A DNA stretch of 64,000 nt from a virus. Shown one piece after another: positions 40,290-57,652 of the stretch (within the stretch, counting starts at the first letter, position 1; every line of letters starts with the position of its first letter). A program made the translations under genes and the position numbers. The notes below the pieces were generated by a model. That model did no database searches and had not been told where the DNA came from. It saw only the letters and a list, made by a program, of their open reading frames with translations. The stretch covers positions 1 through 64,000 of the IMG/VR virus record IMGVR_UViG_3300020198_000002, one strand, 5' to 3'.

Positions 40290-40297
40290 TATAAATA
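40290..40297 (+). promoter_or_regulatory. T4-type late promoter TATAAATA
   Basis: Exact octamer 5 bp after the fibre stop and about 36 bp before ATG 40333. Confidence 0.65.
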
Positions 40298-40332: not shown

Positions 40333-40791
40333 ATGACAAAACAAGTACAGTTTAGAAAGGGCACAACTGCGGAGCATTTTAACTTCACAGGCGCCCTTGC
40401 TGAAATTACAGTTGATACTGATAAAAAGACAGCCATTGTACACGATGGAGTAACTCCTGGTGGTTTTGAACTTACGAAATCTAGATGGACATTAGCAACT
40501 GGAAATGCATATTTGGGGACAAATCAAAAGTATACTGTTGATTCCCAAAACAGTCCTGGTGGATTTACTTTAACAATGCCAGAACCAAGATCTGTTGGAG
40601 ACTGGGTTTGGATTGAAGATTTCGCAAATTTTTGGAGTCAAAATCCAGTAAATATTGTGTCCGCCTATGATTTTGAAAACGGACATTTGGTTAGAGAATC
40701 ATCTCCACTTATTCTTGATGTATCTGGTGCTTCAATTTCTTTAATTTGGAATGGAACCTTATGGAAAATCTTCAACAATAGAGGAAGTTAA
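40333..40791 (+). CDS. Fibre protein with tropism-determinant-like N-terminus, 152 aa
   Basis: MTKQVQFRKGTTAEHFNF, then GALAEITVDTDKKTAIVHDG is the pattern of the N-terminal beta-prism (Mtd_N-like) domain found in many phage fibres. The C-terminal part (GGFTLTMPEPRSVGDWVWIED, then LIWNGTLWKIFNN) is a small beta domain that also ends the 1272-aa fibre downstream (VTLPANPVIGDTVRIYD, then NDTWGWRIFSI). In this family the N-terminal domain anchors and trimerises. It probably forms a short fibre or cap, in a transcript started at 40290. Confidence 0.7.
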   Translation: MTKQVQFRKGTTAEHFNFTGALAEITVDTDKKTAIVHDGVTPGGFELTKSRWTLATGNAYLGTNQKYTVDSQNSPGGFTLTMPEPRSVGDWVWIEDFANFWSQNPVNIVSAYDFENGHLVRESSPLILDVSGASISLIWNGTLWKIFNNRGS

Positions 40792-40793
40792 CT

Positions 40794-41198
40794 ATGGCAT
40801 TAACATTAAGTAATAGTATCTCTGGTGAGTTTATTCCATCAGAATCTTCTGGATTTTATGTTTATGCTTTAAGAAGAGATGCAGAATCAATGCTGTATCT
40901 ATCAAAAGTTAGCGCTGCCTCTACTGAAACTGGAGAATTTTATAGGGCAAATGGTACTGCAATTCCTGAATTTGGTGATGGTATTGATTATGGTTGTTAT
41001 GATGTAGGTGTAGGAAAAACTTCAGAAATTAGAAATGATATTGCAAGTAATAAAAAATTTCTAGATGATCCAAATGATAAATATCAACAGATCCGTTTCG
41101 ATAGAAGAAACTTATACTACTACATAGATAATGATGGTTTCTTCGTCATCCGATTCAATGGACCAGATTATGATTACCTCTCTATCGGACCCAAATAA
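40794..41198 (+). CDS. Hypothetical protein between fibre genes, 134 aa
   Basis: ATG 40794, 2 nt after the previous stop. LTLSNSISGEFIPSESSGFYVYAL and a C-terminal strand block (LYYYIDNDGFFVIRFNG) suggest a compact beta protein. The middle is acidic and polar. It may be a fibre component or fibre chaperone because of its location, with no sequence evidence for either. It is followed after 15 nt by the ribosome site AGGAG of the long fibre gene. Confidence 0.55.
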   Translation: MALTLSNSISGEFIPSESSGFYVYALRRDAESMLYLSKVSAASTETGEFYRANGTAIPEFGDGIDYGCYDVGVGKTSEIRNDIASNKKFLDDPNDKYQQIRFDRRNLYYYIDNDGFFVIRFNGPDYDYLSIGPK

Positions 41199-41216: not shown

Positions 41217-44200
41217 ATGGCTGAGTTTAGACTTGGAAGAGTAAAATTCAACTGGACTGGCAATTGGCAGCCATCCAAATCCTACTTGATTGATGACATC
41301 ATCAAGTTCGGTGGGAATAGTTACGTGGCGGTCGTTAATCACACTTCCGTAGCCAGTACAGCAGATTTTTATGTAACTGATTTTGCTAAATGGAATGTCC
41401 ATTTAGAGGGTATTTCTAATACTGGAGAGTGGGCACCCAATTATTTGTATAAGGAAAACGAGGTTTTCAAATTTGGTAACGTTCAATATAGAGTTGTTGT
41501 CTCTCACCTTTCACATGGATCTTTTCCAGATCTAAGTAAAGTAGTTGAATACGTAGCTGGATTTAAAGCTGAAGGTGAGTGGAACAATAATACTCAATAT
41601 CAAACTGGAGATGTTGTCAACTATCAAGGATCTTCTTACGTTGCTTTAACAACATCCCTCGCTGGATTTTTGCCGCCAATTAACGTTGCAATTGGAACCG
41701 ATGTCGCCGGCAAATCTTGGCAAATTCTTGCCGATGGTCTTGCAGGTGCCGCAATCACCTTTACTCCTGGTACTTACTATAGAGGTCAATTAGTACAGTA
41801 TGGTGGACATATTTTTAGACATAAACTAGGTGTTACTACAAGCGTTTATCCTTTAGGGTCTGGTGATCCCGTAACTGGAACTGGTATTGGGAATTCTGCT
41901 TGGGAGCTCTTAGTACAAGGATTCAAATTTGTAGGTAATTTCTCGACAACATTTAATTACAATGTTGGGCATGTTGCAAGATTTGGTTCAAATTCATATG
42001 TTGCAGTAGGTAATTCATTCATAAATATTGACCCTTTAGCTGGTCTTGGTACATATTGGGAGACTCTTGCTGCTGGAGACAGTTCTGCAGCTCTTACTAC
42101 CAAGGGTGATATTTTAACTTACAATGGCGGTCCATTTAGAATCGGGATTGGTTCTACTGGATATGCACTTGCAGTAAATCCTGATGGGCTTCCTGGTTAT
42201 CAAATTGTGGGTGCTCAAACTCGTGTTTACTACGTAGACTCTGAGTCTGGTGATGATGGCTCCAATGGTCTTGCACCTAACCTAGCGTTCAAAACAATTA
42301 AGCAAGCTTGTCAGGCTGCACGTCCTGATAGAAGTATCACTAATTTTGAATATACTGCATCAACTGGACTTTCAACAATTACCGCTCCTGGTCACGGATT
42401 GGCAAACGTTGGAACATTCGTTCAGTTAGCTGAAATTGAATTTGAGTGTACCTCTGGTGGTAACACTTATGGAGTTCTTGGATTCAATTACACTCCAACA
42501 ACTGGTATTGCTACAGTAACTGCTATTAATATTGGTCTTGCTCCAGAAACTGGTATTGGAAATCTATTAAGAGTGAGAGATGTTCAAGTTTCATATAACA
42601 CGGGTGCAGGAAGTACTACGGCATTATTTGCAAATGCATTTGGTGGATCAAACTTCCCAATCACTGCAATTCCAAGCAACAACTCGGTAGCATTGAACGT
42701 TGGTATTAGAACATTCTCACTCAACTATATTGGTGGAGGTACTATCTTTGCTGGTATCACTACAACCATCTTCCCAGATGTTGCTTCCAAGTCTTATTTT
42801 GAAGTTCTTCAAGTTCTTGATACGAATAGAATTGTTGTTAACGTAGGTCCTTCTACTATTGCACACACCTACGTAGGCGGAGGACATATAACTGACCTAA
42901 CTCCTGCTGTTCTAAGACTTTCTGCCTCTCAGTTCTATGAGCAACTACCAATCATTGTTCCTCCATTCACTTCTATTGTTGGACATACACTTAGAGGTAC
43001 TACTGTCTTACCTAAGACTGGATTCTCCGATGACAATTCAACTCCAAATAATAGAGCTACAATGTTCCAGTTGAGTGATGCAACTACAATTCAAGCGTTG
43101 GCATTCAAAGGATTAGAAGGATTCCATTACGACTCTGCAGCTCCTTTTGAAATTAATAATACAAACGTTAGAACTGGTGTTGGTACAACCGCTTGTGGTA
43201 AGTTCTTTGCACTTAATCCAAATTCTCCAGTTAACAATAAGTCGCCTTATGTTAAGGATTGCACATGTTTCTCCGATCCTGCCAGTGCAGATGGCAGATT
43301 TGGCGGCGGTGGAGTAGGGGTATTCCTTGATGGTGGAGTCCATGAAGAGGGTGCGAGATCAATGGTATTTGACTCGTTTACCATGGTCAACTCTGATGGT
43401 GCTGGATATATTCTTGATAAAAACGCAATTGCAGAAATCGTTTCCTGCTTTACTTATTATTGCAAGTGGGGATATTATTCTGGTGGTGGATCCAGAATTC
43501 GTGCAGTTGGTGGTAATAACTCTTATGGTGATTATGGCGTCATTGCTTCTGGATTCTCTACCTCTGAACCAGTAAGATCCGCAAGACTCTTTGGTGATCT
43601 GATGAAGATGCAACCAGCAACAATTTTGGGTACAGTCGCTGTCGGGCAGACAATGGTTGGTGAAACATCTGGTGCTCACGGTTGGCTCATAAACGATCAA
43701 AGAGCTGCAGATAAATTCCACTTCAAGTATTATCCTGGTTACGGTGCAACTGCAACTACAGCAAACGGTAACATTGCGATTGGTACTTCACCATTTATTG
43801 ATGGAGAACTCGTCAATACATATAGCCCCACTAGTGGTGCAGGTGTAGCTGGTTCTTTCTATGTTGGTGCTGCTTCCAGTTCTATAAGTGGACAGAAGGG
43901 AACTATCGTCGAAGTTGATGCTGTTAGTGGTACGCTTCTTGTTGGAGACTCGGTTGGTTTCAAAACTACTTTTGGTCAAGAATCACTATTCTACATCATT
44001 AACACAATTACTAATGTTTCTGCTGCTCAGACTTTCATCGATGGTATGACTGGTATTGCATATACTTACTACAATAGAGCAACTTTGACAATTTCTCCTG
44101 ATAAGTCAAGAGCCACTCCAGATACTAGAAATATCCACCCACTTGGTAACTTCTCTACTTCCGTATCGGCTGGTTCTTCAATTGATGTAAGAACCAAGTT

Positions 44201-45035
44201 CTCACAAGTTCGTCTAACTGGTCACGACTTCCTCTATGTCGGTACTGGTAATAAGACCGAAACCAACTATCCATTTGTTGATGAAACAGCCCTTCAACAG
44301 GGCAATGAAACAAGAACATTTGGTCCTGGTAAGGTATTCTTCGTATCTACTGACCAAGGAGGCAACTTCCGTGTTGGTCAATTCTTCTCGGTTAATCAGT
44401 TAACTGGTCGTGCAACTTTGGATGCATCCGCATTCAACCTATCTGGTCTAACAGAACTTAGACTTGGTGCGATTGGTGGTCAGGTTGGAGAATCGATTAA
44501 TGAATTCTCTTCTGATGAACAAATGGGGGGCAACTCAAATAGTGCTTGCCCAACCGAATTTGCAGTTCGTGGTTTCTTACTTAGAGACAAAATGGGTACA
44601 GGCGCAATGGTTCCACCTAGAGGAACAACTGCACAGAGACCTTCAGGCCTAGATGCAAGTTTTGTTGCAGGTGCTCTTAGATTCAATCTAACCAACTCAT
44701 CACTAGAATTTTATGATGGATCAAAATGGGTTCAGCCTGGTAAACTGACTTATAACACAATTAACTCCGCAACCACCCTGGTGGCGCAGAATGTGTACTT
44801 TGTAAATACTGTATCGGGTGCTATCACAGTCACTCTCCCCGCTAACCCAGTTATCGGGGATACGGTTAGAATCTATGACCTTGCTAAAACCTTTGATAAT
44901 AATGCATTAACCGTCAACAGAAACGGCAAATTGATTCAAGGTGATGCACAAGATTTGACAGTTAACATCGAGGGTTCTGCTTTTGATCTAACCTTCTCTA
45001 ATGATACTTGGGGATGGAGAATCTTCTCAATCTAA
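41217..45035 (+). CDS. Long tail fibre with tandem carbohydrate-binding-like modules, 1272 aa
   Basis: ATG 41217 follows AGGAG. Residues 1-300 hold five successive modules of about 50 aa with the form W..xxxYxxGDVVxYxGxxYVA (NWQPSKSYLIDDIIKFGGNSY, WNNNTQYQTGDVVNYQGSSY, FNYNVGHVARFGSNSY), similar to CBM5/12 chitin-binding-like domains. At about residue 340, YYVDSESGDDGSNGLAPN begins a probable right-handed beta-helix. The C-terminus is a small domain shared with the 152-aa fibre protein. This is the layout of a receptor-binding fibre. C-rich codon choice in its second half suggests high expression. An intrinsic terminator follows. Confidence 0.77.
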   Translation: MAEFRLGRVKFNWTGNWQPSKSYLIDDIIKFGGNSYVAVVNHTSVASTADFYVTDFAKWNVHLEGISNTGEWAPNYLYKENEVFKFGNVQYRVVVSHLSHGSFPDLSKVVEYVAGFKAEGEWNNNTQYQTGDVVNYQGSSYVALTTSLAGFLPPINVAIGTDVAGKSWQILADGLAGAAITFTPGTYYRGQLVQYGGHIFRHKLGVTTSVYPLGSGDPVTGTGIGNSAWELLVQGFKFVGNFSTTFNYNVGHVARFGSNSYVAVGNSFINIDPLAGLGTYWETLAAGDSSAALTTKGDILTYNGGPFRIGIGSTGYALAVNPDGLPGYQIVGAQTRVYYVDSESGDDGSNGLAPNLAFKTIKQACQAARPDRSITNFEYTASTGLSTITAPGHGLANVGTFVQLAEIEFECTSGGNTYGVLGFNYTPTTGIATVTAINIGLAPETGIGNLLRVRDVQVSYNTGAGSTTALFANAFGGSNFPITAIPSNNSVALNVGIRTFSLNYIGGGTIFAGITTTIFPDVASKSYFEVLQVLDTNRIVVNVGPSTIAHTYVGGGHITDLTPAVLRLSASQFYEQLPIIVPPFTSIVGHTLRGTTVLPKTGFSDDNSTPNNRATMFQLSDATTIQALAFKGLEGFHYDSAAPFEINNTNVRTGVGTTACGKFFALNPNSPVNNKSPYVKDCTCFSDPASADGRFGGGGVGVFLDGGVHEEGARSMVFDSFTMVNSDGAGYILDKNAIAEIVSCFTYYCKWGYYSGGGSRIRAVGGNNSYGDYGVIASGFSTSEPVRSARLFGDLMKMQPATILGTVAVGQTMVGETSGAHGWLINDQRAADKFHFKYYPGYGATATTANGNIAIGTSPFIDGELVNTYSPTSGAGVAGSFYVGAASSSISGQKGTIVEVDAVSGTLLVGDSVGFKTTFGQESLFYIINTITNVSAAQTFIDGMTGIAYTYYNRATLTISPDKSRATPDTRNIHPLGNFSTSVSAGSSIDVRTKFSQVRLTGHDFLYVGTGNKTETNYPFVDETALQQGNETRTFGPGKVFFVSTDQGGNFRVGQFFSVNQLTGRATLDASAFNLSGLTELRLGAIGGQVGESINEFSSDEQMGGNSNSACPTEFAVRGFLLRDKMGTGAMVPPRGTTAQRPSGLDASFVAGALRFNLTNSSLEFYDGSKWVQPGKLTYNTINSATTLVAQNVYFVNTVSGAITVTLPANPVIGDTVRIYDLAKTFDNNALTVNRNGKLIQGDAQDLTVNIEGSAFDLTFSNDTWGWRIFSI

Positions 45036-45044
45036 TAATATGGT

Positions 45045-45066
45045 GGGGAGGCAACTCCCCGTTTTA
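45045..45066 (+). terminator. Intrinsic terminator after the long fibre
   Basis: GGGGAG (45045-45050), a GCAA tetraloop, CTCCCC (45055-45060), then GTTTTATT. GNRA-type loop. Confidence 0.82.
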
Positions 45067-45107: not shown

Positions 45108-45890
45108 ATGGCAACATATGGAAGTTATAAAAGAATCACTACTGATCGAGTAACACCTGCAAGTCTACCAGATAATGCATTTGCTACTGGTGTCGGATTC
45201 AAGTATGGCATTGCATGGATTAGAGGTCCTATAGGTGGCACTACTTCTGGGTGTTGCTGCCTTTGGACAGTACCGGCGGGTGTTCATAAATTAACTTTTG
45301 AACTTTGGGGAGCCGGTGGTAATAGTCACGGATTTTGTTCCTGGAACCGCTGCCATCACTATTTTGGTGCTGGGTCTGGCACTTACGCAACAAAAACAAT
45401 TGCAACCGCGCCAGGGTGCCAGTACACTGTTTGTGCAGGCGGAACATTTCCTTGTTGTTCTTTTGAATGTGTTGGCTGTTGTGGTTGTGTTACGTATGTT
45501 AATGGATATAACTTGAGCAACTTCTGTTCTGTCGGAGGCAATCCAGGATGTGCTAATACAGACTGGAACACAATGTGTTATTCAGATTGGGACTGTTGTG
45601 TAGGCAGAACCATGAATAGTTCAGATTTTGCTATGGGAAATATGAGACCTGCAGGTACTGGACCGTTTAACTGCCATTGTTATAGACATACTTGGTGTGC
45701 TGCTAATGCTCCATTCCTCGCTGGATCAACCACCGGCGGTGAACTTGCTGAATGCTGGGTGCGACATGCGTGTTGGACTTCGGTCTATGCCCAGGGTGGC
45801 GGCGGCGGAATGACCACTTATTGTGGAAACTGGGATAATGGTTATGGGGGAATCGGCGGCAGCGGCGTAGTTAAAATTACATACGTGTAA
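45108..45890 (+). CDS. Cysteine/glycine-rich tail protein, copy 1, 260 aa
   Basis: It follows the pattern of phage Gly-rich beta domains: LWTVPAGVHKLTFELWGAGG near residue 53 and a C-terminal GGSGVVKITYV. Unusually it carries about 24 cysteines (9%), in clusters such as SGCCCLW, NRCHH, PCCSFECVGCCGC, CVGR and FNCHCYRHTWC. Repeated Cys with His suggests metal ligation or extracellular disulfides. A T4-like phage assembles in the reducing cytoplasm, so metal binding is the more natural first guess. Two homologues follow in tandem. It is preceded by the terminator of the long fibre gene and has no clear late promoter. Confidence 0.68.
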   Translation: MATYGSYKRITTDRVTPASLPDNAFATGVGFKYGIAWIRGPIGGTTSGCCCLWTVPAGVHKLTFELWGAGGNSHGFCSWNRCHHYFGAGSGTYATKTIATAPGCQYTVCAGGTFPCCSFECVGCCGCVTYVNGYNLSNFCSVGGNPGCANTDWNTMCYSDWDCCVGRTMNSSDFAMGNMRPAGTGPFNCHCYRHTWCAANAPFLAGSTTGGELAECWVRHACWTSVYAQGGGGGMTTYCGNWDNGYGGIGGSGVVKITYV

Positions 45891-45916
45891 ATATTAAGAG
45901 AGGAACCAAGTAAAAA

Positions 45917-46714
45917 ATGGCAAACTATTCATCTTACAAAAAAGTCTCTAGCGATATGGTTCCAGATGCATTCGTAACGGATGCTATGCTTGCTCCTGGA
46001 ACTAGAAAAAACTACGGTGTTCAGTGGTTCCGTGGATCACCAAACTCTGTGAGCAGTGGTTGTTGCTGTTTATGGACAGTGCCAGCTGGCGTTTCTAAAA
46101 TGCATATTGAGGCTTGGGGTAGTGGTGGTAATGGTCATGGATCTTGTTCCTGGGACCGCTGCCATCACTTTAAAAGTGCCGGCGGCGGGCAATACAATTC
46201 AAAATATATATTAACTGTACCTGGGTGTCAGTATACTATTTGCGCTGGTGGTGTATTTCCTTGTTGTTCTTTTGACTGCACTGGATGTGAGGGATGTTCA
46301 TCTTATGTGAATGGATATAATTTAAGTAACTTCTGTGCAGTTGGTGGAACCAGAGGATGTGCAAATACTTCTTGGGCAGAAACTTGTTACTCCGCGTTTG
46401 AGTGTTGTTTAGCACCTGGTAATAATGGTGGAGATTTTGGTTTTATTTCTCACGGTGGCCGTTTTGGTTCGGTAGAGTGGTGGTTTGGTGTTGGATTCTG
46501 TCACTGTCACAAACAAACTACAAGATCATCAACGGCTCCTCTAATTGGAGCTAACGTAGAAATATCAATTAATTACTGTTGGATTCGTCATGGTTGTTGG
46601 ACTGTTCCATATGGCACTGGCGGCCAAGGATCACAGACGAGTTATTGTGGAGACTGGAATAATGGTTATGGAAATACTGGTGGTCCAGGATTAGTTAAAA
46701 TTACGTATTTCTAA
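45917..46714 (+). CDS. Cysteine/glycine-rich tail protein, copy 2, 265 aa
   Basis: ATG 45917, 26 nt after copy 1, with AGAGAGGAACC as ribosome site. It has the same order of motifs: SGCCCLWTVPAGV, SCSWDRCHH, GCQYTICAGG, PCCSFDCTGCEGC, YVNGYNLSNFC, CHCHKQT, then GGPGLVKITYF. There are about 22 cysteines. The region between the cysteine blocks (about residues 170-225) differs from the other copies in length and sequence (GGRFGSVEWWFGVGFCHCH), suggesting that this is the variable, possibly ligand-facing part. Confidence 0.67.
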   Translation: MANYSSYKKVSSDMVPDAFVTDAMLAPGTRKNYGVQWFRGSPNSVSSGCCCLWTVPAGVSKMHIEAWGSGGNGHGSCSWDRCHHFKSAGGGQYNSKYILTVPGCQYTICAGGVFPCCSFDCTGCEGCSSYVNGYNLSNFCAVGGTRGCANTSWAETCYSAFECCLAPGNNGGDFGFISHGGRFGSVEWWFGVGFCHCHKQTTRSSTAPLIGANVEISINYCWIRHGCWTVPYGTGGQGSQTSYCGDWNNGYGNTGGPGLVKITYF

Positions 46715-46740
46715 TAAATAATATAAACAGGATCTAAAAA

Positions 46741-47523
46741 ATGGCAAGTTACAGTTCCTACAAGCAATTAGCACCAACACAGTATGATGATGGTATCTTT
46801 ACAGATGCAAAAATATCAAATGCAGCTTTTGCATCCTGGTGTGTTCAGTGGGTTTATGGGCAACCAGAGGTTCTTGCTAGTGGGTGTTGCTGCCTTTGGA
46901 CAGTTCCTGCTGGTGTATCAAGAGTAACTTTTGAACTTTGGGGATCTGGTGGTAATGGTCATGGATCTTGTTCCTGGGACCGCTGCCATCACTTTAGAGG
47001 TGCTGGTGGTGGATATTACAACACAAAAACAATCACCACTGCAGCTGGGTGTCAGTACACTGTTTGTGCTGCTGGTGTATATCCTTGTTGTTCTTTTGAA
47101 TGTGTTGGCTGTAACGGATGTTCATCTTATGTGAATGGATATAACTTGAGCAACTTCTGTGCAATTGGTGGATACCGTGGCGAAGCTAATACTGCCTGGA
47201 ACACAGCGTGCAATAGTGTTTATGAGTGTTGTTTAGGTCCTGGTGATAATGGTGGAGACTTTGGTATGGGTAACCACTCTGGAAACTTTGGTTGGCACGC
47301 GAGTAACTGCCATTGTCATTGTGTTGGAACAGCCCCTTCAGCAGCTCCTTTCATTGGGGGGGATAGTCAACAACAACTTCATGAATGCTGGATTCGTCAT
47401 GGTTGTTGGACTGTTCCAGCTGGATATGGTGGTATGGGAGCGATGACCACTTATTGTGGAAACTGGGATAATGGTTATGGAAATACTGGTGGTAGTGGTC
47501 TAGTTAAAATTACTTACGTTTAA
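46741..47523 (+). CDS. Cysteine/glycine-rich tail protein, copy 3, 260 aa
   Basis: ATG 46741 after AGGATCTAAAAA; a TAATAAATA late-type box overlaps the stop of copy 2 at about 46713-46720. The architecture is the same, with about 22 cysteines (GCCCLW, DRCHH, CSFECVGCNGC, NCHCHC). At DNA level, 50 nt (46947-46996) are identical to copy 2, and 38 nt near the 3' end (47443-47480) are identical to copy 1. Copy 3 is therefore a mosaic of the other two. A strong terminator (47548-47578) closes the cluster. Confidence 0.67.
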   Translation: MASYSSYKQLAPTQYDDGIFTDAKISNAAFASWCVQWVYGQPEVLASGCCCLWTVPAGVSRVTFELWGSGGNGHGSCSWDRCHHFRGAGGGYYNTKTITTAAGCQYTVCAAGVYPCCSFECVGCNGCSSYVNGYNLSNFCAIGGYRGEANTAWNTACNSVYECCLGPGDNGGDFGMGNHSGNFGWHASNCHCHCVGTAPSAAPFIGGDSQQQLHECWIRHGCWTVPAGYGGMGAMTTYCGNWDNGYGNTGGSGLVKITYV

Positions 47524-47547
47524 TTTTAATATAAACAAAAAACTAGG

Positions 47548-47578
47548 TGAGTTGGAGTACAATCCGACTCATTTTTTT
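47548..47578 (+). terminator. Intrinsic terminator after the Cys-rich cluster
   Basis: A 9-bp stem, TGAGTTGGA (47548-47556) with TCCGACTCA (47563-47571), one G-T pair, 6-nt loop, then seven T. Confidence 0.9.
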
Positions 47579-47588
47579 GTGTGATTAT

Positions 47589-47596
47589 TATAAATA
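47589..47596 (+). promoter_or_regulatory. T4-type late promoter TATAAATA
   Basis: Exact octamer 34 bp before ATG 47630 and just after the terminator, so the 292-aa gene starts a new unit. Confidence 0.68.
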
Positions 47597-47629: not shown

Positions 47630-48508
47630 ATGGCAACAAAAATTATTAAAGTAGAGTTTGATCTACCTCTTCCAAATGAGTACCTTGTAGATCATGGATA
47701 TGATAAAGGAAATTCAAGAAAATACACATATCATGGGCCAGATAAAATATATTTACAAATTGGCCAGGATGGCAGCGAAAAATATGGCCCACTCACCGAA
47801 GATGACATTGCAGATGGTCGTCCTCAACCCCTTGATGTCGTAGAGTGGTTTGAAGTTGATTGCACCAAATACCCTCTTGTTTGCCAACTAAGAGGTCCCA
47901 TCGTAAATGAGTCGCAGGAAATTTCTGGACCTATTGGTCCAGACGGGAAAACACCGAATCCACAAAAAGGTGCAGCTGCCGGGTCTGTTAAGGCACATCC
48001 ACAATCACCAGATCTGGATGGATATGAGCGGTATGTATATAGTTTGCCCATCCTTCCAAAATTTATTCATGATCCTCTTTCCGTAAAAGTAGTTGATGGT
48101 GTTCCCGTTGTAAGACCATTTACGGTAAACGAGTGTGTATTAGGAGTTGATAGAGAATTTACTATCACTGATTTGAGAATTCATAGAAACCAAATGTTAA
48201 ATGCTTCAGATTCTAGCATTTCATCGGATATGCCAGAATTTGCAGTAAATGCATTTAAGACATTTAGACAGGGTTTACGAGATTGGCCAGATTTGGTGGA
48301 AACCAAAAAGATTCCAGTACATATTGCCTTAAAAATGGCTCCTATCCATCCAGATACAAATACTCCTAATGTTGGAGTAGGCGCATATGCTGCAGCTGCT
48401 GCTGGTGATGCACGAGCTGCAGAGATTAAATCAAGACAGGAGGAACTTAGAGAATTGGCTGAGGAAGAAGGCCGTAAACAGATGGAAAGAGCGAAGTATA
48501 AGGGATAA
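47630..48508 (+). CDS. Hypothetical virion-associated protein, 292 aa
   Basis: ATG 47630. The N-terminal half is beta-rich (KIIKVEFDLPLPNEYLVDHG, then KIYLQIGQDGSEKYGPLTEDD) and the C-terminus is an Ala/Glu/Arg-rich helix (RAAEIKSRQEELRELAEEEG), a probable coiled coil. A short Gly/Pro stretch (SGPIGPDGKTPNPQKG) links them. It is monocistronic, between a late promoter and a terminator. A fibre-assembly or fibre-tip protein is plausible from the setting; nothing in the sequence proves it. Confidence 0.6.
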   Translation: MATKIIKVEFDLPLPNEYLVDHGYDKGNSRKYTYHGPDKIYLQIGQDGSEKYGPLTEDDIADGRPQPLDVVEWFEVDCTKYPLVCQLRGPIVNESQEISGPIGPDGKTPNPQKGAAAGSVKAHPQSPDLDGYERYVYSLPILPKFIHDPLSVKVVDGVPVVRPFTVNECVLGVDREFTITDLRIHRNQMLNASDSSISSDMPEFAVNAFKTFRQGLRDWPDLVETKKIPVHIALKMAPIHPDTNTPNVGVGAYAAAAAGDARAAEIKSRQEELRELAEEEGRKQMERAKYKG

Positions 48509-49743: not shown

Positions 49744-51546
49744 ATGGATCAATGGATTGCTGGTATAACCAGAGGTCACAATTCTGGTGTATGTTTGATT
49801 AAGAACGGCGAATTGGTATTTGCCATTGAAGAAGAAAGACTATCAAGAGCAAAGTATGATGGTGGACCTTTTGCAGCAATGATAAAGATCCTAGAATATA
49901 CCAACAGATTGGATTACCTCGTTGTAGCACATACGCAATCGTTAGTTCAAACTGCAGGCCGAGTTGATTTTAGTGGGGATGATGTCTATACTGGTTTGGC
50001 AAGAAAACTTGGATTAATAGACAGGAAATCCAAACTACAGGATCATCCACAAGTCATTGATTTAAGTAGAACTCACCACAAACTTCATGCTGCTTGTGCA
50101 TTCTATAGATCTGGATTTAAAGATGCTGTCGCATTAATTGTTGATGGTGCAGGAACATTCATCCAAATGAATATTGGTAATCAAGTAGAAACTACTTGGG
50201 AACTAGAAACCATTTTTGATTGTAAATATCCTGCAGATTTTAAAACACTCTATAAACATCAGGGTGGTAGAGGACCTTGGGGATCAGCAAGAATTGAAAA
50301 ATTCCCAAGTGATGGGGAAGGTGAGGAAGGAACTCACGAATTCGTTCTTGATGACAGTGCAGGTATCACAAAAGCATACGAAGCAGTAACGCAATACTGC
50401 GGTTGGGCTCCAATTGAGGCTGGTAAAACTATGGGACTATTCCCATACGGACAACCAAATGAAAAAATTCCAAAAATTTACTCTGATATTGGTGGAAATT
50501 CAAATTGGAAGACGGCAAACCGAGATGTAATTATTCCAACATATCCAAATGGTGCTCTAGTTAATGAAGGTAGATTTCCAGAATTGTACACACCAGAAAA
50601 CTTTGATGGGGATCTAACCCAATTAAAAAATAGAAGAGATATGGCTTATGCAATCCAAACCCAATCTCAATCAATGGTTTTGGATTTAATTAGAAAGGCC
50701 GTAAAAATTAGTGGCAAAAATAACGTTGTTATCTCAGGTGGTTATGCACTAAATTGTGTTGCAAATTACTGGTATCTAGAACAACTGAAAGACGAAGGAA
50801 TCAATCTATATGTAGAACCAGTTAGTAATGATGCGGGGACTGCAATTGGAGCTGCATATTTGCAATATTACAGAACAACAAATGATAATAAAATTAGAGA
50901 ACCACTTAAAACTTTATATTCTGGACCAATATACACGTACACAATCGAAGATATCGTAGATATTGCCGATAAGTATGGTGCTGATAGAGTATTTGAAGCA
51001 AGCAATGAAGATGTCGTTGAATTGATTTCTGATAAAAATATTGTTGCTCTCTTCCAAGGAAGATCGGAAGCTGGTCCTCGTGCTCTTGGTAATCGTTCCA
51101 TTCTTTATGATCCTCGTGATCCTGATGGAAAAGACCATGTGAATTCAATTAAACATAGGGAATATTTCCGACCATTCGCTGGATCTATTCTAAACGAACA
51201 TGTTCATGAATGGTTTGATCTTCGTGGAATGGAAGATACTCCTTTCATGATGTATGCTGTCAATTGTAAAGAAGGCATTGAGGAAAAAATTCCAGCGATC
51301 ATTCATGTTGATGGGACATGTAGAATTCAGACAGTAACAAAAGAAGAAAATAAGAACTATCATGATCTAATTGAGACATTTTACAAAAAAACTGGCTGTC
51401 CAATTATTTTCAATACGTCTTTCAACTTAGGTGGAGAACCACTAGTAGAAGATCTTGATGATGCTTGTCGCACTTTAGAAAACAGTCTAATCGAGTACTT
51501 ATATCTTCCAGAATATGGATTAATGATTGAGGTGAAAAATAAGTAA
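49744..51546 (+). CDS. NodU/CmcH-family carbamoyltransferase, 600 aa
   Basis: ATG 49744 after AAGGAG. All family landmarks are visible: N-terminal GITRGHNSGVCLIKNGELVFAIEEERLSR, HHKLHAACAFYRSGF, GKTMGLFPYG, VISGGYALNCVANYW with NDAGTAIGAAY (ASKHA fold), and the C-terminal GRSEAGPRALGNRSILYDPR with FNTSFNLGGEPLVED. The enzymes of this family make carbamoyl-adenylate from carbamoyl phosphate and ATP and transfer the carbamoyl group to a sugar or antibiotic hydroxyl. The length fits the family (about 550-600). The stop overlaps the halogenase start by 1 nt, so the two are probably coupled. Confidence 0.92.
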   Translation: MDQWIAGITRGHNSGVCLIKNGELVFAIEEERLSRAKYDGGPFAAMIKILEYTNRLDYLVVAHTQSLVQTAGRVDFSGDDVYTGLARKLGLIDRKSKLQDHPQVIDLSRTHHKLHAACAFYRSGFKDAVALIVDGAGTFIQMNIGNQVETTWELETIFDCKYPADFKTLYKHQGGRGPWGSARIEKFPSDGEGEEGTHEFVLDDSAGITKAYEAVTQYCGWAPIEAGKTMGLFPYGQPNEKIPKIYSDIGGNSNWKTANRDVIIPTYPNGALVNEGRFPELYTPENFDGDLTQLKNRRDMAYAIQTQSQSMVLDLIRKAVKISGKNNVVISGGYALNCVANYWYLEQLKDEGINLYVEPVSNDAGTAIGAAYLQYYRTTNDNKIREPLKTLYSGPIYTYTIEDIVDIADKYGADRVFEASNEDVVELISDKNIVALFQGRSEAGPRALGNRSILYDPRDPDGKDHVNSIKHREYFRPFAGSILNEHVHEWFDLRGMEDTPFMMYAVNCKEGIEEKIPAIIHVDGTCRIQTVTKEENKNYHDLIETFYKKTGCPIIFNTSFNLGGEPLVEDLDDACRTLENSLIEYLYLPEYGLMIEVKNK

Positions 51547-53066
51547 TGCAAAGAAAAGCCAAATCAATAACCATTGTTGGTGGTGGTAGTTCTGCGTGGT
51601 TAACTGCAGCACTTTTAAATAATAGTATTAAAAAATATAGAGAAATCTACGTTATTGATAAAGAAGTAGGCACTCCAGTTGGAGTGGGAGAAGCTACAAT
51701 CCTAAGTTTCAAAAAATTTATGGATGATTGTGGATTCTCTATCCTAGATTGGTTCAGTGAAATATCAGCAACTTTCAAAGGTGGTATTTTATTTGAGAAT
51801 TGGCTTGGAAAAGAAAATCATGTTTGGCATCCATTTGCATTTCCAGATTTCCAATATAATCAAACAACAATGTTGGAACATTGGTCAAATTGTCAAGAAT
51901 TAGATTTTAAAACACATTCTCTTGTCCACTATAATGTTTGCACAAAAGACCAAAAAATAGATCCAGATAACATAGGAATCTATGCATTTCATATTGATGC
52001 TGCACTACTAGTCAAATACATCAAATCAAGAATTGTTGGAAATGGAGTGACATTCATACAATCTGAAGTAAAAGGTATTGTCAGGGACGATAATGGTTAT
52101 GTTACAGAATTGGTTTTAAACAATGGGGAAGTTCATAAGTCAGATTTGTTTGTTGATTGTACTGGATTCAATGGACTATTAAAAGAAAAGAATGATAGAG
52201 TTGATTTAAGTGACAGACTATTCTGTGATACTGCAGTTTGCACTCAAGTTCCATATTTGAATAGAGAGATTGAACTCAAACCATACACTGGATGTGATGC
52301 AGTAGATCATGGATGGATTTGGAAAATTCCAGTAAAGAATAGAATTGGTTCTGGTTTAGTTTTTAATAGATCAGTTACTGATATTGAAGAGGCAAAAGAG
52401 TACTTTGTTAAATATTGGGACAATAGGATTACCAAAGAAGAACTAAAAGTTCTGGATTGGACACCTTTCTACAATAAAAACTTCTGGGAAAAAAATATTG
52501 TTTCCGTTGGACTTGCTGCTGGATTCATTGAACCTTTGGAAAGTACTGGTATTGGACTTGCTTGTGCAGGAGCATGGGGATTATTGAATCGAATTAAAAC
52601 AACAGAATTTGATTCACATGATATCGATTTTTATAATGCAGAACTAAAATGTTTCTTTGAAAACTGCATAGATTTTGTCAATATGCATTATTCAAAATCT
52701 AAGAAAGAAGGTAAATTCTGGGAGTGGGTACATCAAACTTATAAACCAACCGAAAAATTCTCATATCACATTGATGAGATGAAATCGAACACGATTGATA
52801 TTGTTGACGAAGGGAAAGAAATGTTTTCTTTTAACAACTGGATGTGTTGGATGATTCAATTGGGTCATGAAATTTCGCCAAAAATTAGATCAAACTCAGT
52901 TCAAAATTCTGAAGATCTGGTTAAAGATTTCTATTCTAATGAAAAAAATAAGTATGATTACTTACCTACAGCTTCGGTATACAATGACTACTTTAACGCA
53001 CTAACTACACTCACAAAAGAAGTGATAAATCCGTATAAGAACAATGAAAAGACCAAACTTTATTAA
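51546..53066 (+). CDS. Flavin-dependent tryptophan-halogenase-family protein, 506 aa
   Basis: The FAD site GGGSSAWLTAALL is at residues 12-24. Lys78 in ATFKGG corresponds to the catalytic lysine (Lys79 in PrnA). GWIWKIP at 256-262 is the WxWxIP motif that keeps these enzymes from acting as monooxygenases, and EPLEST (329-334) carries the active-site Glu-Ser region. All key residues are present, so activity is expected. Known members use FADH2, O2 and halide to halogenate tryptophan or other indoles and aromatics. The substrate here could be free tryptophan, a protein residue or another aromatic. It needs a flavin reductase, which is not in this window. Confidence 0.9.
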   Translation: MQRKAKSITIVGGGSSAWLTAALLNNSIKKYREIYVIDKEVGTPVGVGEATILSFKKFMDDCGFSILDWFSEISATFKGGILFENWLGKENHVWHPFAFPDFQYNQTTMLEHWSNCQELDFKTHSLVHYNVCTKDQKIDPDNIGIYAFHIDAALLVKYIKSRIVGNGVTFIQSEVKGIVRDDNGYVTELVLNNGEVHKSDLFVDCTGFNGLLKEKNDRVDLSDRLFCDTAVCTQVPYLNREIELKPYTGCDAVDHGWIWKIPVKNRIGSGLVFNRSVTDIEEAKEYFVKYWDNRITKEELKVLDWTPFYNKNFWEKNIVSVGLAAGFIEPLESTGIGLACAGAWGLLNRIKTTEFDSHDIDFYNAELKCFFENCIDFVNMHYSKSKKEGKFWEWVHQTYKPTEKFSYHIDEMKSNTIDIVDEGKEMFSFNNWMCWMIQLGHEISPKIRSNSVQNSEDLVKDFYSNEKNKYDYLPTASVYNDYFNALTTLTKEVINPYKNNEKTKLY

Positions 53067-53769
53067 TGAATCCGAAGTATTTGCAATAAACCCAGGACTT
53101 GAAGCTTCTGTACATGTAATTGGACCAGAAGAAGTAAAAGTAGTCGTTATTGAAAATTTTTATTTAAATCCAGATTTGGTAAGAGAATTGGCGTTAACAA
53201 TTCCGCCAACAGAAAATTCAAAAATTTTAGCAGGATCTCCTGGAACTAGGGTTTTTGGACATTATAATTTTGTTAGTATGTTCCCCATCTTTCAACATAT
53301 TTTTAGAAACGTATATCCTGAGGTGACAAAAGAAGTAACAGACGAAGAAATGAAGTCCAGTATCTGCAATACTCCATTCTGTGTAAATATCAGTCAGTCT
53401 GACAAGATGCCTCCTGTTGTTCCCCATATTGATGATGAAGATAGAATGTTATTTGCTGGAGCTTTATACCTCAATAAACCCGATGAGTGTTCTGGTGGAA
53501 CATCTTTTTACATGTTAGATGGAAAACAACAAGTAACAAATACATATGTTGGTGATTGGTTGAAAAAAAATAATCATACAAATTTTTATACTCATTACTT
53601 AACTGACAGTGAAGATGATTGGGATCTTTTATCTGTTGCAGAAATGAAGTATAATAGATTAATAATTTATCCTGGAAACGTTCTGCATACTGCATACGTA
53701 AAACCAGAAATGTTTACAGATGACAAATATAGACTAGTCCAGATGTTTTTTATAGCACTTAAATCATAA
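53044..53769 (+). CDS. Fe(II)/2-oxoglutarate oxygenase-like, DUF6445 type (1), 241 aa
   Basis: ATG 53044 overlaps the halogenase by 23 nt. The motif PHIDDEDRMLFAGALYLN (His128, Asp130), GGTSFY, and YPGNVLHTAY (His215) with Arg230 in DKYRLVQMFF is the HxD...H...R set of a double-stranded beta helix oxygenase. I recall DUF6445 proteins as frequent neighbours of tryptophan-halogenase-family genes in marine bacteria, which matches this order. It would hydroxylate a peptide or small-molecule substrate. A close paralogue lies at 54482. Confidence 0.75.
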   Translation: MKRPNFINESEVFAINPGLEASVHVIGPEEVKVVVIENFYLNPDLVRELALTIPPTENSKILAGSPGTRVFGHYNFVSMFPIFQHIFRNVYPEVTKEVTDEEMKSSICNTPFCVNISQSDKMPPVVPHIDDEDRMLFAGALYLNKPDECSGGTSFYMLDGKQQVTNTYVGDWLKKNNHTNFYTHYLTDSEDDWDLLSVAEMKYNRLIIYPGNVLHTAYVKPEMFTDDKYRLVQMFFIALKS

Positions 53770-54485
53770 TGAGTTTTACTTCTAGATTTCCATCAATTTG
53801 TATTGATGGATTTTATTCCGAACCAGATGAAATCGTCAAATGGGCTTCATCTTTAGAATATAATAAAGACCCCAAGTCTGGATGGCCTGGTTGGAGAACT
53901 CCGCCACTATCCACTATTGATTATCAATTTGATGATCAATTTAGTAAAAAATTAATGGGAGTATTTTTTGATCTAGATCGAGATTGGGTTAGTTGGGAGA
54001 TACAAACTCATTTCCAAATTATAAAACCATTTTCTGGTGATAAAAATGATCCAAGGAATTGGGGTTGGGTTCATCAGGATTCTGATGGTGTTTATGATTT
54101 GGTAAAAGGATTTGAACCAATGAAATGCGAGTACGCAGGAATTTTATATTTAACTCCAGAGGCAGATTTGGACACTGGTACATCTATTTTTAGATCAAAA
54201 GTAAAAGATCCAGACACAAAACAGCCTTTCAAAAAAGAACTATTTTCTGGAGAAGAAATTGAGTTTGAAAAATATAAAGAAGGTATGATTAATGCTAGAT
54301 CTCAATTTGAAGAGACAATACGTTACTGCAATGTATACAATAGATTAATTGCATTTGAAGCGTCAAATTACCATGCAGCAATGAACTTCAAAATGGATTC
54401 CGATAAGATTAGATTGACTCAAGTATTTTTTATAAAAAATATTAAAACACAGGTCAATCCAATTCTAAGAGGATTTTTAAGATGA
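53769..54485 (+). CDS. Fe(II)/2-oxoglutarate oxygenase-like (2), 238 aa
   Basis: It starts with one base of overlap (TAATG) to the previous gene. WVHQDSDGVYDLV supplies His102 and Asp104, YAGILYLTPEADLDTGTSIF the strand after, and NRLIAFEASNYHAAMNF His202, with Arg215 in DKIRLTQVFF. The fold order is the same as in its neighbours, but the sequence is clearly different (SGWPGWRTPPL), so its substrate is probably different too. It is in the middle of the coupled operon. Confidence 0.72.
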   Translation: MSFTSRFPSICIDGFYSEPDEIVKWASSLEYNKDPKSGWPGWRTPPLSTIDYQFDDQFSKKLMGVFFDLDRDWVSWEIQTHFQIIKPFSGDKNDPRNWGWVHQDSDGVYDLVKGFEPMKCEYAGILYLTPEADLDTGTSIFRSKVKDPDTKQPFKKELFSGEEIEFEKYKEGMINARSQFEETIRYCNVYNRLIAFEASNYHAAMNFKMDSDKIRLTQVFFIKNIKTQVNPILRGFLR

Positions 54486-55273
54486 AAAAAAATTTTATTA
54501 ATGAGGATGAAGTTTTTGCCTTGAATGAAGGATTGGAAGCAAAAGTTTATACTATAGGTCCAGAAAAAGCCAAAATAACCTATGTTGATAATTTTTATAA
54601 AAATCCAGATTTGGTTAGGGACCTTGCGTTAACAATTCCACCAACAAGGAATCCAATTATTATGGCTGGAGCTCCTGGATCTAGAGTCGATGCGTATTAT
54701 AATTTTTCCCCCATGTCTCCATTTTTTCATTATATTTTTAGAAATGTTTACGGAGATATAGTTAAAGATATATCTGATGAAAAAATTTATGATTCCATGA
54801 AAGGAGTCACTTTTTGCGTAAATGTAACTCAATCAGACATTCTCAATCCAATTGTCCCACATGTAGATGATACTGGAGACCTACTTTTTGCAGCAACCGT
54901 ATATCTCAATAAACCAGAAGAATGTGCGGGAGGAACTTCCTTTTATACTTTAGAAGGAGAACAGCGAAGTAGTGCAGATAAAATTGATGCATGGTTAAAA
55001 AAAGTAGGCAAGTATCCATACTATGATAATTATATTACTGACAGTGAATCTGACTGGGAAATGATTCATTTGGCTGAAATGCAGTATAATAGGTTTGTAA
55101 TCTATCCAGCAAATATTTTACACACAGGATATATAAAACCAGAAATGTTTACTGGAGACACTCATCGTTTAGTCCAGATGTTCTTTGTTTTTCTTGGCGG
55201 ACCAGGATCATTCTTACCAGTGAATCATAATGAATATAAAAAATACTTAGAGAATAAAGATGCATCTAGTTAA
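54482..55273 (+). CDS. Fe(II)/2-oxoglutarate oxygenase-like, DUF6445 type (3), 263 aa
   Basis: ATG 54482 overlaps the previous stop by 4 nt. It is a paralogue of the gene at 53044 (both begin with a KxxFINExEVFAxNxGLEA block). Iron ligands are His127, Asp129 (PHVDDTGDLLF) and His214 (YPANILHTGY), with Arg229 for 2-oxoglutarate. A C-terminal tail of about 28 residues (GGPGSFLPVNHNEYKKYL) is absent from copy 1. Two copies on either side of a third, different oxygenase suggest duplication with insertion. Confidence 0.74.
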   Translation: MKKNFINEDEVFALNEGLEAKVYTIGPEKAKITYVDNFYKNPDLVRDLALTIPPTRNPIIMAGAPGSRVDAYYNFSPMSPFFHYIFRNVYGDIVKDISDEKIYDSMKGVTFCVNVTQSDILNPIVPHVDDTGDLLFAATVYLNKPEECAGGTSFYTLEGEQRSSADKIDAWLKKVGKYPYYDNYITDSESDWEMIHLAEMQYNRFVIYPANILHTGYIKPEMFTGDTHRLVQMFFVFLGGPGSFLPVNHNEYKKYLENKDASS

Positions 55274-55847
55274 GGCTTTTGAAAATTTTATTTCTATAGA
55301 AGAAAAAAATATTTTAAACAAATGGACTCTTGCGAATTATAATCAAGATTATTTTATTGACCCAAGAATGGATTCTCGGGGATTAAAAAGAACGAAGTTA
55401 ACAACTAGGTTTGCTACTCCATTAGTTACACCATCATTATTTGTAAGTTCAAACTCAAATTTTGAGTATCCGAGTTTAGTATACAACATACAAAGAAGAA
55501 TAATATATACCTTTGGATTTAATGAATATGGTTTGTCTCCAGTTGGCAAGAATGGTATAATTACAGAAATAGGTTTTAAGGGAGGAACTGTACATCCACA
55601 TATTGATCCAGTTTGGATTGAAAATACGGATACTATTCATTGCAATATAATAACACAAAAACCAAAATCTGGTGGAATTACATATATTGAAAATGAACCG
55701 TGGGAGGTTAATGAAACTGATCTTCTGATGTATGTTGTATCTTCGGCAGAACATAAGGTAGATGAAATCATTGGGGACAAAAATAGAATATTATGGATTT
55801 TTAGTTTTATCTTATCAAAAAATGATGCGGAGAAAATTTTATCATGA
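55260..55847 (+). CDS. Fe(II)/2-oxoglutarate oxygenase-like (4), 195 aa
   Basis: ATG 55260 overlaps the previous gene by 14 nt. The ligands are His114-x-Asp116 (VHPHIDPVW) and His165 (SSAEHKVDEI) with Arg176 (NRILWIFSF). The sequence is not close to the other three. GGITYIENEPWEVNETDLLMYVVSS reads as the double-stranded beta helix core. Its four-base overlap with the next gene (ATGA) ties it to the sugar-activating genes. The substrate is unknown. Confidence 0.62.
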   Translation: MHLVKAFENFISIEEKNILNKWTLANYNQDYFIDPRMDSRGLKRTKLTTRFATPLVTPSLFVSSNSNFEYPSLVYNIQRRIIYTFGFNEYGLSPVGKNGIITEIGFKGGTVHPHIDPVWIENTDTIHCNIITQKPKSGGITYIENEPWEVNETDLLMYVVSSAEHKVDEIIGDKNRILWIFSFILSKNDAEKILS

Positions 55848-56245
55848 AAACAGTTTTTGTTAATGGTACTTTCGATATCCTGCACCCAGGACATATAGAA
55901 CTTTTCAAAGTTGCTAAATCTTTGGGAGATAGGGTCATTGTCGCAACGGATAGTGACGAAAAAATTCGTAGGGATAAAGGACCAAATAAACCCATTAATG
56001 ATCTATGTCACAGAGTTTCTATGCTCCAATCAATTAGATACATAGATATGGTTCTATATTTTAATACTAAAGAAGAGTTGGAATCAATTATAAAATTATA
56101 CCAACCAGACATTCTTCTTTTGGGAAATGATTGGGAGAATGGAGTAGTAATTGGAAAAGAATTTGCAAAATCCGTAAGATTTTTTCCTAGGGTTGGAAAT
56201 TATTCTACTAGTAATATTGTTAATAAGATCAAAAATCATGAGTAA
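55844..56245 (+). CDS. HldE C-domain-like sugar-phosphate nucleotidyltransferase, 133 aa
   Basis: NGTFDILHPGHIELFKVAKSLGD carries the HxGH nucleotidyl-transfer motif (His14-His17). VATDSDEKIRRDKGPNKPIND, DILLLGNDWENG and NYSTSNIVNKI follow the order of the C-terminal (ADP-heptose synthase) half of HldE/RfaE. It would convert a heptose 1-phosphate to ADP-heptose. TagD-type glycerol-3-phosphate cytidylyltransferases share the fold and are the main alternative; the kinase gene directly downstream favours HldE. It overlaps the kinase start by 8 nt. Confidence 0.8.
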   Translation: MKTVFVNGTFDILHPGHIELFKVAKSLGDRVIVATDSDEKIRRDKGPNKPINDLCHRVSMLQSIRYIDMVLYFNTKEELESIIKLYQPDILLLGNDWENGVVIGKEFAKSVRFFPRVGNYSTSNIVNKIKNHE

Positions 56246-57011
56246 TTTTTCGGTATTAGTTATTGGCGATTCATGCGAAGATGAGTATGTTTATGGATCG
56301 GTCACTAGGATCAGTCCAGAAGCTCCCGTACCCGTATTAAAGTATGAATACTTAAAAAAGTCTTTAGGAATGGCTGCAAATGTCAATGAGAACTTAAAAT
56401 CTTTTGGAATGCAAACAAATCTTGTCACACAAAAAGAAAAAATAGTAAAAAGAAGATTTATTGATAGACAAACAGGACAACAGTTGATGCGAATGGATGA
56501 AGAAAACGTATCTACATTTTGCAGTGCAGCTCAGATCCGAATTGCTTTCATTCATGGAAATTATGATGTCTTAGTGATTTCGGATTATGATAAGGGATTT
56601 TTGGGTTACAGTGAATTAGAAGATCTATGTCAAAGTTTTGATGGTCCTGTTTTTGTAGATACAAAGAAAAAAAGACTTATTAAAAAAGAAAATGTATTTT
56701 TCAAAATAAATTTAAAAGAGTATGAGAAATTAGACAAGGATTGTTTGCCGGATCCAACAAATTTAATTGTAACTCTTGGGGCAAATGGTGTAAAATGGAA
56801 TGGTATAGACTTTGCATCCGAGAAAGTACCAGTATATGATGTAGTTGGAGCGGGAGATACTTTTCTTGCGGCTTTAGTTTATCATTATATGATTACGTCA
56901 ACTATGAAAGAGTCTATTGAATTTGCAAATAAAGCTGCTGCACTTGCAGTTCAGCATCCTGGGACTTATAAACTTACTGAAAATGACATTAATTTACTGT
57001 GTGGATATTGA
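56238..57011 (+). CDS. HldE N-domain-like (PfkB) heptose-phosphate kinase, 257 aa
   Basis: ATG 56238 is chosen because the product then opens MSNFSVLVIGDSCEDEYVYG as HldE kinases do. VTRISPEAPVPVLKYEYLK is the near-diagnostic HldE/RfaE motif, MAANVNENLKSFG follows, and VYDVVGAGDTFLAALVYH holds the PfkB catalytic Asp. HldE kinases phosphorylate D-glycero-D-manno-heptose 7-phosphate at C1. The protein is about 60 residues shorter than the usual kinase domain (about 318). The gene order (transferase then kinase) is the reverse of the bacterial fusion. Confidence 0.82.
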   Translation: MSNFSVLVIGDSCEDEYVYGSVTRISPEAPVPVLKYEYLKKSLGMAANVNENLKSFGMQTNLVTQKEKIVKRRFIDRQTGQQLMRMDEENVSTFCSAAQIRIAFIHGNYDVLVISDYDKGFLGYSELEDLCQSFDGPVFVDTKKKRLIKKENVFFKINLKEYEKLDKDCLPDPTNLIVTLGANGVKWNGIDFASEKVPVYDVVGAGDTFLAALVYHYMITSTMKESIEFANKAAALAVQHPGTYKLTENDINLLCGY

Positions 57012-57309
57012 TGGTACAATCTGTAATAATTCCAAAGATGGAAATTATATATCAGTTATTCCAAATCCCGATAGAATTGCAAAAATAAATAACCTGTATG
57101 ATGAAGGCCACTACATCATATACTTAACAGCAAGAGGAATGTCGAGATATAAAAATTCCAGAGTGGCTGCTCATAACGAATTTTATAATTTTACCTACAA
57201 TCAATTAAGATCTTGGGGTTGTAGATTTCATGAACTTCATATGGGTAAACCTGCTGCAGATATATATGTAGATGATAAAGGGGTGAACGACAATGACTTC
57301 TTCAATTAA
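56983..57309 (+). CDS. Small HAD-superfamily phosphatase, 108 aa
   Basis: ATG 56983 lies 29 nt inside the kinase gene, so translation is coupled. HAD motif I is VDIDGTIC (Asp8, Asp10), motif II IIYLTARG (Thr49) and motif III/IV MGKPAADIYVDDKG (Lys89, Asp96/Asp97): a full catalytic set in a minimal, capless protein. In the bacterial heptose pathway a HAD enzyme (GmhB) removes the C7 phosphate between the two HldE steps; its presence here fits that slot. The protein is much shorter than GmhB (about 190 aa) and more like the capsule-locus HAD proteins, so the step is inferred. Confidence 0.7.
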   Translation: MTLIYCVDIDGTICNNSKDGNYISVIPNPDRIAKINNLYDEGHYIIYLTARGMSRYKNSRVAAHNEFYNFTYNQLRSWGCRFHELHMGKPAADIYVDDKGVNDNDFFN

Positions 57310-57652
57310 ATTTGTTTCTAAAGGATGGGGATTCGAAAAGTGGATTGTAAACTGCGATAAGTACTGCGGAAAACTTCTTTATTTTATAAAAGGAGGACAG
57401 TGCTCTTGGCATTATCATAAAGTAAAAGACGAAACATTTTATATTCAATCTGGAAAACTTATTTTGTTTTACGGGGAAGATGATGATATTAATTCAGCAC
57501 AAAAGAAAGTTTTGAGAAAGGGCGATCATTTTCATGTTCCTGTAGGACTTAGACATAGGATGTATGCTCTAGAAGATACTGAATTATTTGAATTCTCTAC
57601 AGAGCATTTTGAGGAGGATAGTATTAGGATAATTCTTGGAGATACTGTTTAA
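57293..57652 (+). CDS. Cupin protein, possibly a sugar isomerase or epimerase, 119 aa
   Basis: ATG 57293 overlaps the HAD gene by 17 nt. Cupin motif 1 is CSWHYHKVKDETFYIQSGKL (His40, His42, Glu47) and motif 2 GDHFHVPVGLRHRM (His81, His88), so a metal site is intact. Small cupins of this type occur in sugar and polysaccharide loci as isomerases or as carbohydrate-binding proteins; the exact reaction cannot be read. Its 3' end overlaps the 3' end of the opposing epimerase gene by 29 nt. Confidence 0.68.
   Translation: MTSSIKFVSKGWGFEKWIVNCDKYCGKLLYFIKGGQCSWHYHKVKDETFYIQSGKLILFYGEDDDINSAQKKVLRKGDHFHVPVGLRHRMYALEDTELFEFSTEHFEEDSIRIILGDTV

Follow-up and report, generated by a model that had tools for sequence, protein, structure and literature searches.

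Three tandem cysteine-rich paralogues of T4-like cyanophages as a tentative heterotrimeric, cysteine-stapled tail-fibre tip

The solved structure closest to the proteins described here is that of gp24 of the myocyanophage Pam3, a trimeric fibre which combines TNF-like and Gly-rich domains and has its own chaperone, gp25 (PDB 7ypx/7yfw, PMC9608196). Gp24 is the product of a single gene and forms a homotrimer, it displays a long N-terminal helix, and its Gly-rich domain, with 39% Gly, is organised as a lattice; cysteines and disulfides are unmentioned in PMC9608196. The S16/T2 gp38 adhesin, a Gly-rich loop sandwich, likewise provides a Gly-rich fibre tip in T4-like phages (PMC9608196). Among cyanophages, S-SSM7, S-CAM1, S-CAM3 and P-SSM2 encode proteins of phrog_4205 or phrog_35878 that are annotated only as hypothetical or of unknown function, and a literature search for cysteine-rich cyanophage tail proteins found none. 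By profile, Cys richness and gene place, these proteins belong to the same family as three tandem paralogues, here designated A, B and C in gene order, which we tentatively propose, at slightly less than an even chance, to form a heterotrimeric, Cys-stapled tail-fibre tip.

The DNA analysed, hereafter the window, comprises the initial 64 kb of a virus record of 116.6 kb. The source virus is a T4-like cyanophage of the Kyanoviridae syntenic with S-SSM7, its gene order and content agreeing with those of the Synechococcus phages S-SSM7 (Kyanoviridae, Lipsvirus) and Sf-FS3, and the trio is surrounded by T4-type baseplate wedge genes (gp6, gp8 and gp9/10-like) and by genes for large fibre proteins, neck and tail sheath stabiliser. 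Other traits of the window deserve mention in their own right. The neck-protein homologue (PF11649, 59312-61591) bears an additional laminin-G/concanavalin-like lectin domain at about residues 320-450, and a modification cluster adjoining the fibre genes (49744-57652) encodes a carbamoyltransferase, a tryptophan halogenase, a PfkB-type kinase and a cupin, as in S-SSM7. Positions 1-2700 have about 46% G+C, compared with about 35% elsewhere, and both strands are devoid of a long open frame; Rfam and tRNA matches were looked for in this segment without any being found, as was the case for an Rfam scan of the whole window, and it is possibly a fragment of foreign origin, a frameshifted stretch or non-coding DNA.

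The three genes of the trio are as follows.

45108..45890, + strand: subunit A, 260 aa, 24 Cys, predicted Gly-rich fibre-tip protein of phrog_4205 (ORF, profile matches)
45917..46714, + strand: subunit B, 265 aa, 22 Cys, predicted Gly-rich fibre-tip protein of phrog_4205 (ORF, profile matches)
46741..47523, + strand: subunit C, 260 aa, 23 Cys, predicted Gly-rich fibre-tip protein of phrog_4205 (ORF, profiles, AlphaFold model)

An earlier note on this DNA, made from the sequence alone, had described three tandem virion-type proteins, and these were recovered with identical limits and with 24, 22 and 23 Cys, i.e. 8.3-9.2% of residues, together with 7, 8 and 9 His in A, B and C, respectively. Its account of the Cys clusters stands for CCC (residues 49-51), CC (116-117 and 163-164) and CHC (190-192), but a literal HCxC, as HCHC, occurs in the third protein only. 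The Gly-rich beta domain that it had assigned finds support in matches to PF21722 (Gly_rich_2) with E values of 7e-6 for the third protein, 2.5e-4 for the first and 1e-3 for the second; of the corresponding scores of 26.6, 21.6 and 19.6, that of the third protein alone exceeds the Pfam gathering threshold of 24.3. Gly accounts for 16-17% of the whole protein, so that the trio, with its 9% Cys, differs from the much more Gly-rich domain of Pam3 gp24. A contig of another record, IMGVR_UViG_3300020193_000025 (locus L007, 4368-6783), encodes an identical C protein and identical or near-identical A and B proteins, and probably represents the same virus or a sister virus.

One explanation for such a composition would be that these are Gly-rich fibre proteins of an ordinary kind that have gained Cys by drift or codon bias, with no bonding role for it; in its favour, TGT, which is rich in A+T, predominates among the Cys codons, and the genome has about 35% G+C. 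Nonetheless, the predicted neighbouring genes of the baseplate, fibre and sugar region contain 0-2.5% Cys (mostly below 0.9% for fibre and baseplate genes), which argues against drift and indicates that the unusual density pointed out previously is not due to chance. Furthermore, comparison of the trio with its nearest relatives, loci L008 and L009, gives dN/dS values of about 0.07-0.17 where dS is unsaturated, denoting purifying selection, and the conservation of the cysteines asserted in the earlier note is apparent in the 22-23 Cys sites kept and in the 5-10 Cys codons that changed just between TGT and TGC. As dN/dS is well below 1 and Cys is retained despite silent codon changes, selection acts on the reading frames and on the cysteines alike. 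With this strong conservation, the compensating positions and, above all, the exclusive slots described below, which speak strongly against it, an origin by drift is highly improbable.

The phrog_4205 profile, of unknown function, matches most of each protein, with E values of 5.8e-37 (A), 1.5e-52 (B) and 2.3e-52 (C). A single scan of viral contigs yielded 282 relatives, and genome contigs gave 3 matches only, all in marine MAGs (L094-L096, assigned to Actinomycetota, Flavobacteriales and Rhodobacteraceae), in which the trios are possibly misbinned phage DNA. Family members contain about 14-18% Gly and 8-12% Cys, and 75 of 117 match PF21722 at E<=0.01. Searching the PDB by sequence with the 117-member profile gave no match. 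The AlphaFold model of subunit C, computed as a monomer from 117 homologues, is confident, with a pLDDT of 84.3 and a pTM of 0.79. In the PDB, the model matches the Pam3 fibre 7ypx best (E 9.9e-7, TM 0.51), in an alignment that covers most of the chain with a loose rmsd of 6.1, and both proteins share a beta domain with Gly-rich loops. The next matches are the tail tip of the mycobacteriophage Bxb1 and the extracellular Gly-rich domains of ALK/LTK (E about 2e-4 to 1e-3, TM 0.2-0.3), the latter being animal receptor domains whose Gly-rich packing is analogous at most. The best viral fold matches are to S-CAM3, P-SSM2 and many phage proteins named 'Glycine-rich domain', and S16/T2 gp38 does not appear in the top 50 fold matches. 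Residues 1-24 of the model consist only of short, low-confidence helices, unlike the long N-terminal helix of gp24, and 17 of the 23 Cys of subunit C fall outside strands.

The gene neighbourhood points in the same direction as the fold. The elements around the trio are listed below.

40290..40297, + strand: late promoter motif of T4 type, TATAAATA, 43 bases 5' of the fibre cluster (motif)
40333..40791, + strand: tail protein with an Mtd_N domain, phrog_9648 (profile matches)
40794..41198, + strand: small conserved protein of the fibre cluster, phrog_8997 (profile; order shared with S-SSM7 and Sf-FS3)
41217..45035, + strand: large tail-fibre protein with two CBM_5_12 stretches, phrog_9851, directly upstream of the trio (profile matches)
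45042..45063, + strand: terminator-like hairpin in the gap between the fibre gene and the trio, with a similar hairpin at 32 of 53 related loci
47545..47574, + strand: terminator-like hairpin 3' of the trio, with a similar hairpin at 38 of 53 related loci
47589..47596, + strand: late promoter motif, TATAAATA, 5' of the chaperone gene (motif)
47630..48508, + strand: predicted chaperone of tail-fibre assembly, phrog_9740 (its helical C-terminal region resembles the Phage_tail_APC and tail fiber assembly families)

The protein encoded by the gene preceding the trio would be the fibre that likely carries the tip. As for the gene that follows, 51 of its 67 homologues match Phage_tail_APC (best 1e-11) and 50 match 'tail fiber assembly' phrog_4912, and nearly all loci read have a homologue after the trio, an arrangement reminiscent of the dedicated chaperone adjacent to Pam3 gp24. 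Since a fold search with the model of the window's protein returned no PDB match, its assignment as a chaperone is based on sequence profiles. All four copies of TATAAATA in the window (17875, 34556, 40290 and 47589) lie on the + strand and precede a gene start by 29-51 bases; their number is not above chance and it is their placement alone that is suggestive, making them probable late promoters. A late-promoter-like motif separates the trio from the chaperone gene at 41 of 53 loci. The suggestion that these proteins could be adhesins or tips is thus strengthened by the Pam3 fibre being the best PDB fold and by the genes on either side. Because the trio is flanked by a tail-fibre gene on one side and the gene of the predicted assembly chaperone on the other, its assignment to fibre-tip subunits is well supported, and on gene context and fold we consider it probable; the virion-type character given in the earlier note has the same two foundations. 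Regarding virions, no proteome of any carrier phage was found in the literature, and the literature on S-SSM7, P-SSM2 and Syn9 contains no virion detection of these proteins. Cyanomyovirus virion proteomes are available for S-SM1, S-PM2 and Syn9 (PMC3037559), three phages that gave no match in the family searches.

The copy number is nearly constant. Outside the P-SSM2 group, every carrier locus read whose array is not truncated by the end of its contig has exactly three copies; these 255 loci amount to 151 distinct arrays, as several loci are stretches of one contig, and the counts pertain to Cys-rich members, a fourth, Cys-poor one being missed by the Cys filter used for counting. S-CAM1 and S-CAM3 are among the carriers of three: their Cys-rich, Gly-rich genes occupy the corresponding position but have weak sequence similarity to the window trio, with which they align well by profile comparison only. 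P-SSM2 and two relatives, of the phrog_35878 type, have two longer copies, separated by another gene in P-SSM2. The A, B and C positions follow ancestry, the tree requiring 6 label changes where shuffled labels give 58.7, and some clades show signs of copy exchange (A with C, B with C). Diverged copies held constant at three suggest a heterotrimer, with which they are compatible without being proof of it, and we give an A:B:C heterotrimer an even chance.

Three independent receptor-binding proteins, either homotrimeric tips or alternative adhesins arising by tandem duplication for different receptors, would be another way to account for three genes. Tandem adhesin paralogues are known in phages, Pam3 gp24 is itself homotrimeric (PMC9608196), and in Syn9 the Gly-rich paralogues gp38 and gp39 are encoded in tandem. 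Alternative adhesins should nevertheless vary in number, when the 151 distinct arrays, across several subfamilies, hold three, and the Cys-bearing loops are conserved as opposed to the hypervariable Gly-rich tip of Pam3 type (PMC9608196), which makes this explanation rather unlikely. At the corresponding place, downstream of its fibre genes, Syn9 encodes proteins that are Gly-rich and Cys-poor, gp36 having 35% Gly and 2.5% Cys, and gp38 having 22% Gly and 0.8% Cys. Syn9 gp39 (L132, 17150-18328) contains the gp38-type Gly-rich segment twice with an odd sequence in between, which suggests a duplication or a frameshift.

Examination of 372 unique homologues revealed 18 Cys positions conserved at >=97% and, beside them, pairs of positions which exclude each other. 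Cys is found at position 104 only in 279 sequences, at 134 only in 63, at neither in 30 and at both in none. The tree implies about 24 and 20 changes, and over independent branch pairs the sign test gives a p of about 0.0002. C104 mostly faces Tyr, Phe or His at position 134, and C134 is always accompanied by Trp104. Likewise, C163 is present in 327 sequences and C142 in 37, never together, albeit with few independent events (2 and 5 changes on the tree), and C242 and C243 never co-occur, the sign test being non-significant here (p 0.25). C220 and C244 are coupled (344 sequences with both, 11 and 1 with a single one), again through few independent events, and for most other Cys pairs (31/145, 58/160, 117/148, 45/79) the coupling seen in raw counts is gone over independent branches. 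Some positions are specific to a copy, Cys198 being present in 34 of 39 A and in 0 of 78 B and C proteins, and Cys34 being absent from B (0 of 39). The mutually exclusive slots support the specific structural roles that had been envisaged for the cysteines and suggest, at the level of sequence, that these are specific bond partners or ligands rather than products of drift.

The nature of these bonds can be weighed from the same data. Cys parity shows a weak lean to even counts only: odd totals are found in 48 of 117 proteins (41%) and 22 of 39 trios, which counts against a scheme with all Cys paired in intrachain disulfides, and not all Cys can be in disulfides within the trio. Given these totals, some thiols would be free, metal-bound or bonded elsewhere, as judged from the predicted proteins. 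A functional tip locked by metal, in which Cys and conserved His bind Zn, Cu or Fe in the cytoplasm, would face no problem with odd numbers; moreover, it has at its disposal the CCC, CC and CHC clusters, three conserved residues (His191 at 97%, His179 at 83% and His84 at 82%) and position 220, where His and Cys exchange (12 H, 105 C), and predicted iron-binding domains have been reported for the tail fibre of a marine phage (PMC11705849). On the other hand, conserved His are near few of the Cys, His193 is conserved at only 31%, and HxH motifs (0 in A, 1 in B, 1 in C) are not conserved as they are in iron-binding HxH fibre proteins. The CHC motif is also absent from the distant subfamilies of S-CAM type, and strict one-Cys slots are expected if a spare thiol is harmful, which is more natural for disulfides. 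A metal-locked tip is accordingly unlikely in our estimation, and disulfides, favoured because a second thiol in a slot is avoided, are the likelier of the two chemistries.

In the heterotrimeric tip that we tentatively favour, each subunit would attach through a short N-terminal segment and consist otherwise of a small beta-sandwich, TNF-like as in Pam3 gp24, from which Gly-rich loops project. A, B and C would assemble as one heterotrimer on the preceding fibre, folded with the help of the chaperone encoded downstream, and their loops, with 9-11% Cys, would form specific staples, most likely disulfides completed once the particle leaves the reducing cytoplasm. Cys bonds may in this way partly fulfil the function of the dense polyglycine lattice by which the loops are held in ordinary relatives. 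A bolder version, which we regard as speculative and improbable, is an obligate A:B:C adhesin in which the polyglycine lattice has in large part given way to Cys staples or metal clusters that do not lock until the particle is out in oxygenated seawater. Its design would be analogous to that of C1q, with its three-chain TNF-like head, and if it were true the virion would complete its receptor-binding tip chemically outside the cell.

Phage particles assemble in the reducing cytoplasm, and for this reason 9-11% Cys at a fibre tip is unexpected. The constant three copies, the chaperone and the breadth of the family go beyond the earlier note, and the recurrence of three copies, the mutually exclusive Cys slots and the Cys-poor counterpart in Syn9 are new here. 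Together, the count of three and the exclusive cysteines predict a 1:1:1 complex with defined bonding partners, and the pattern of Cys exchange constitutes a natural experiment in the evolutionary migration of disulfide or metal-ligand positions. Since many marine viral contigs carry members of the family, the heterotrimeric tip, if our reading is true, would be a common and hitherto undescribed design of rigid fibre tip.
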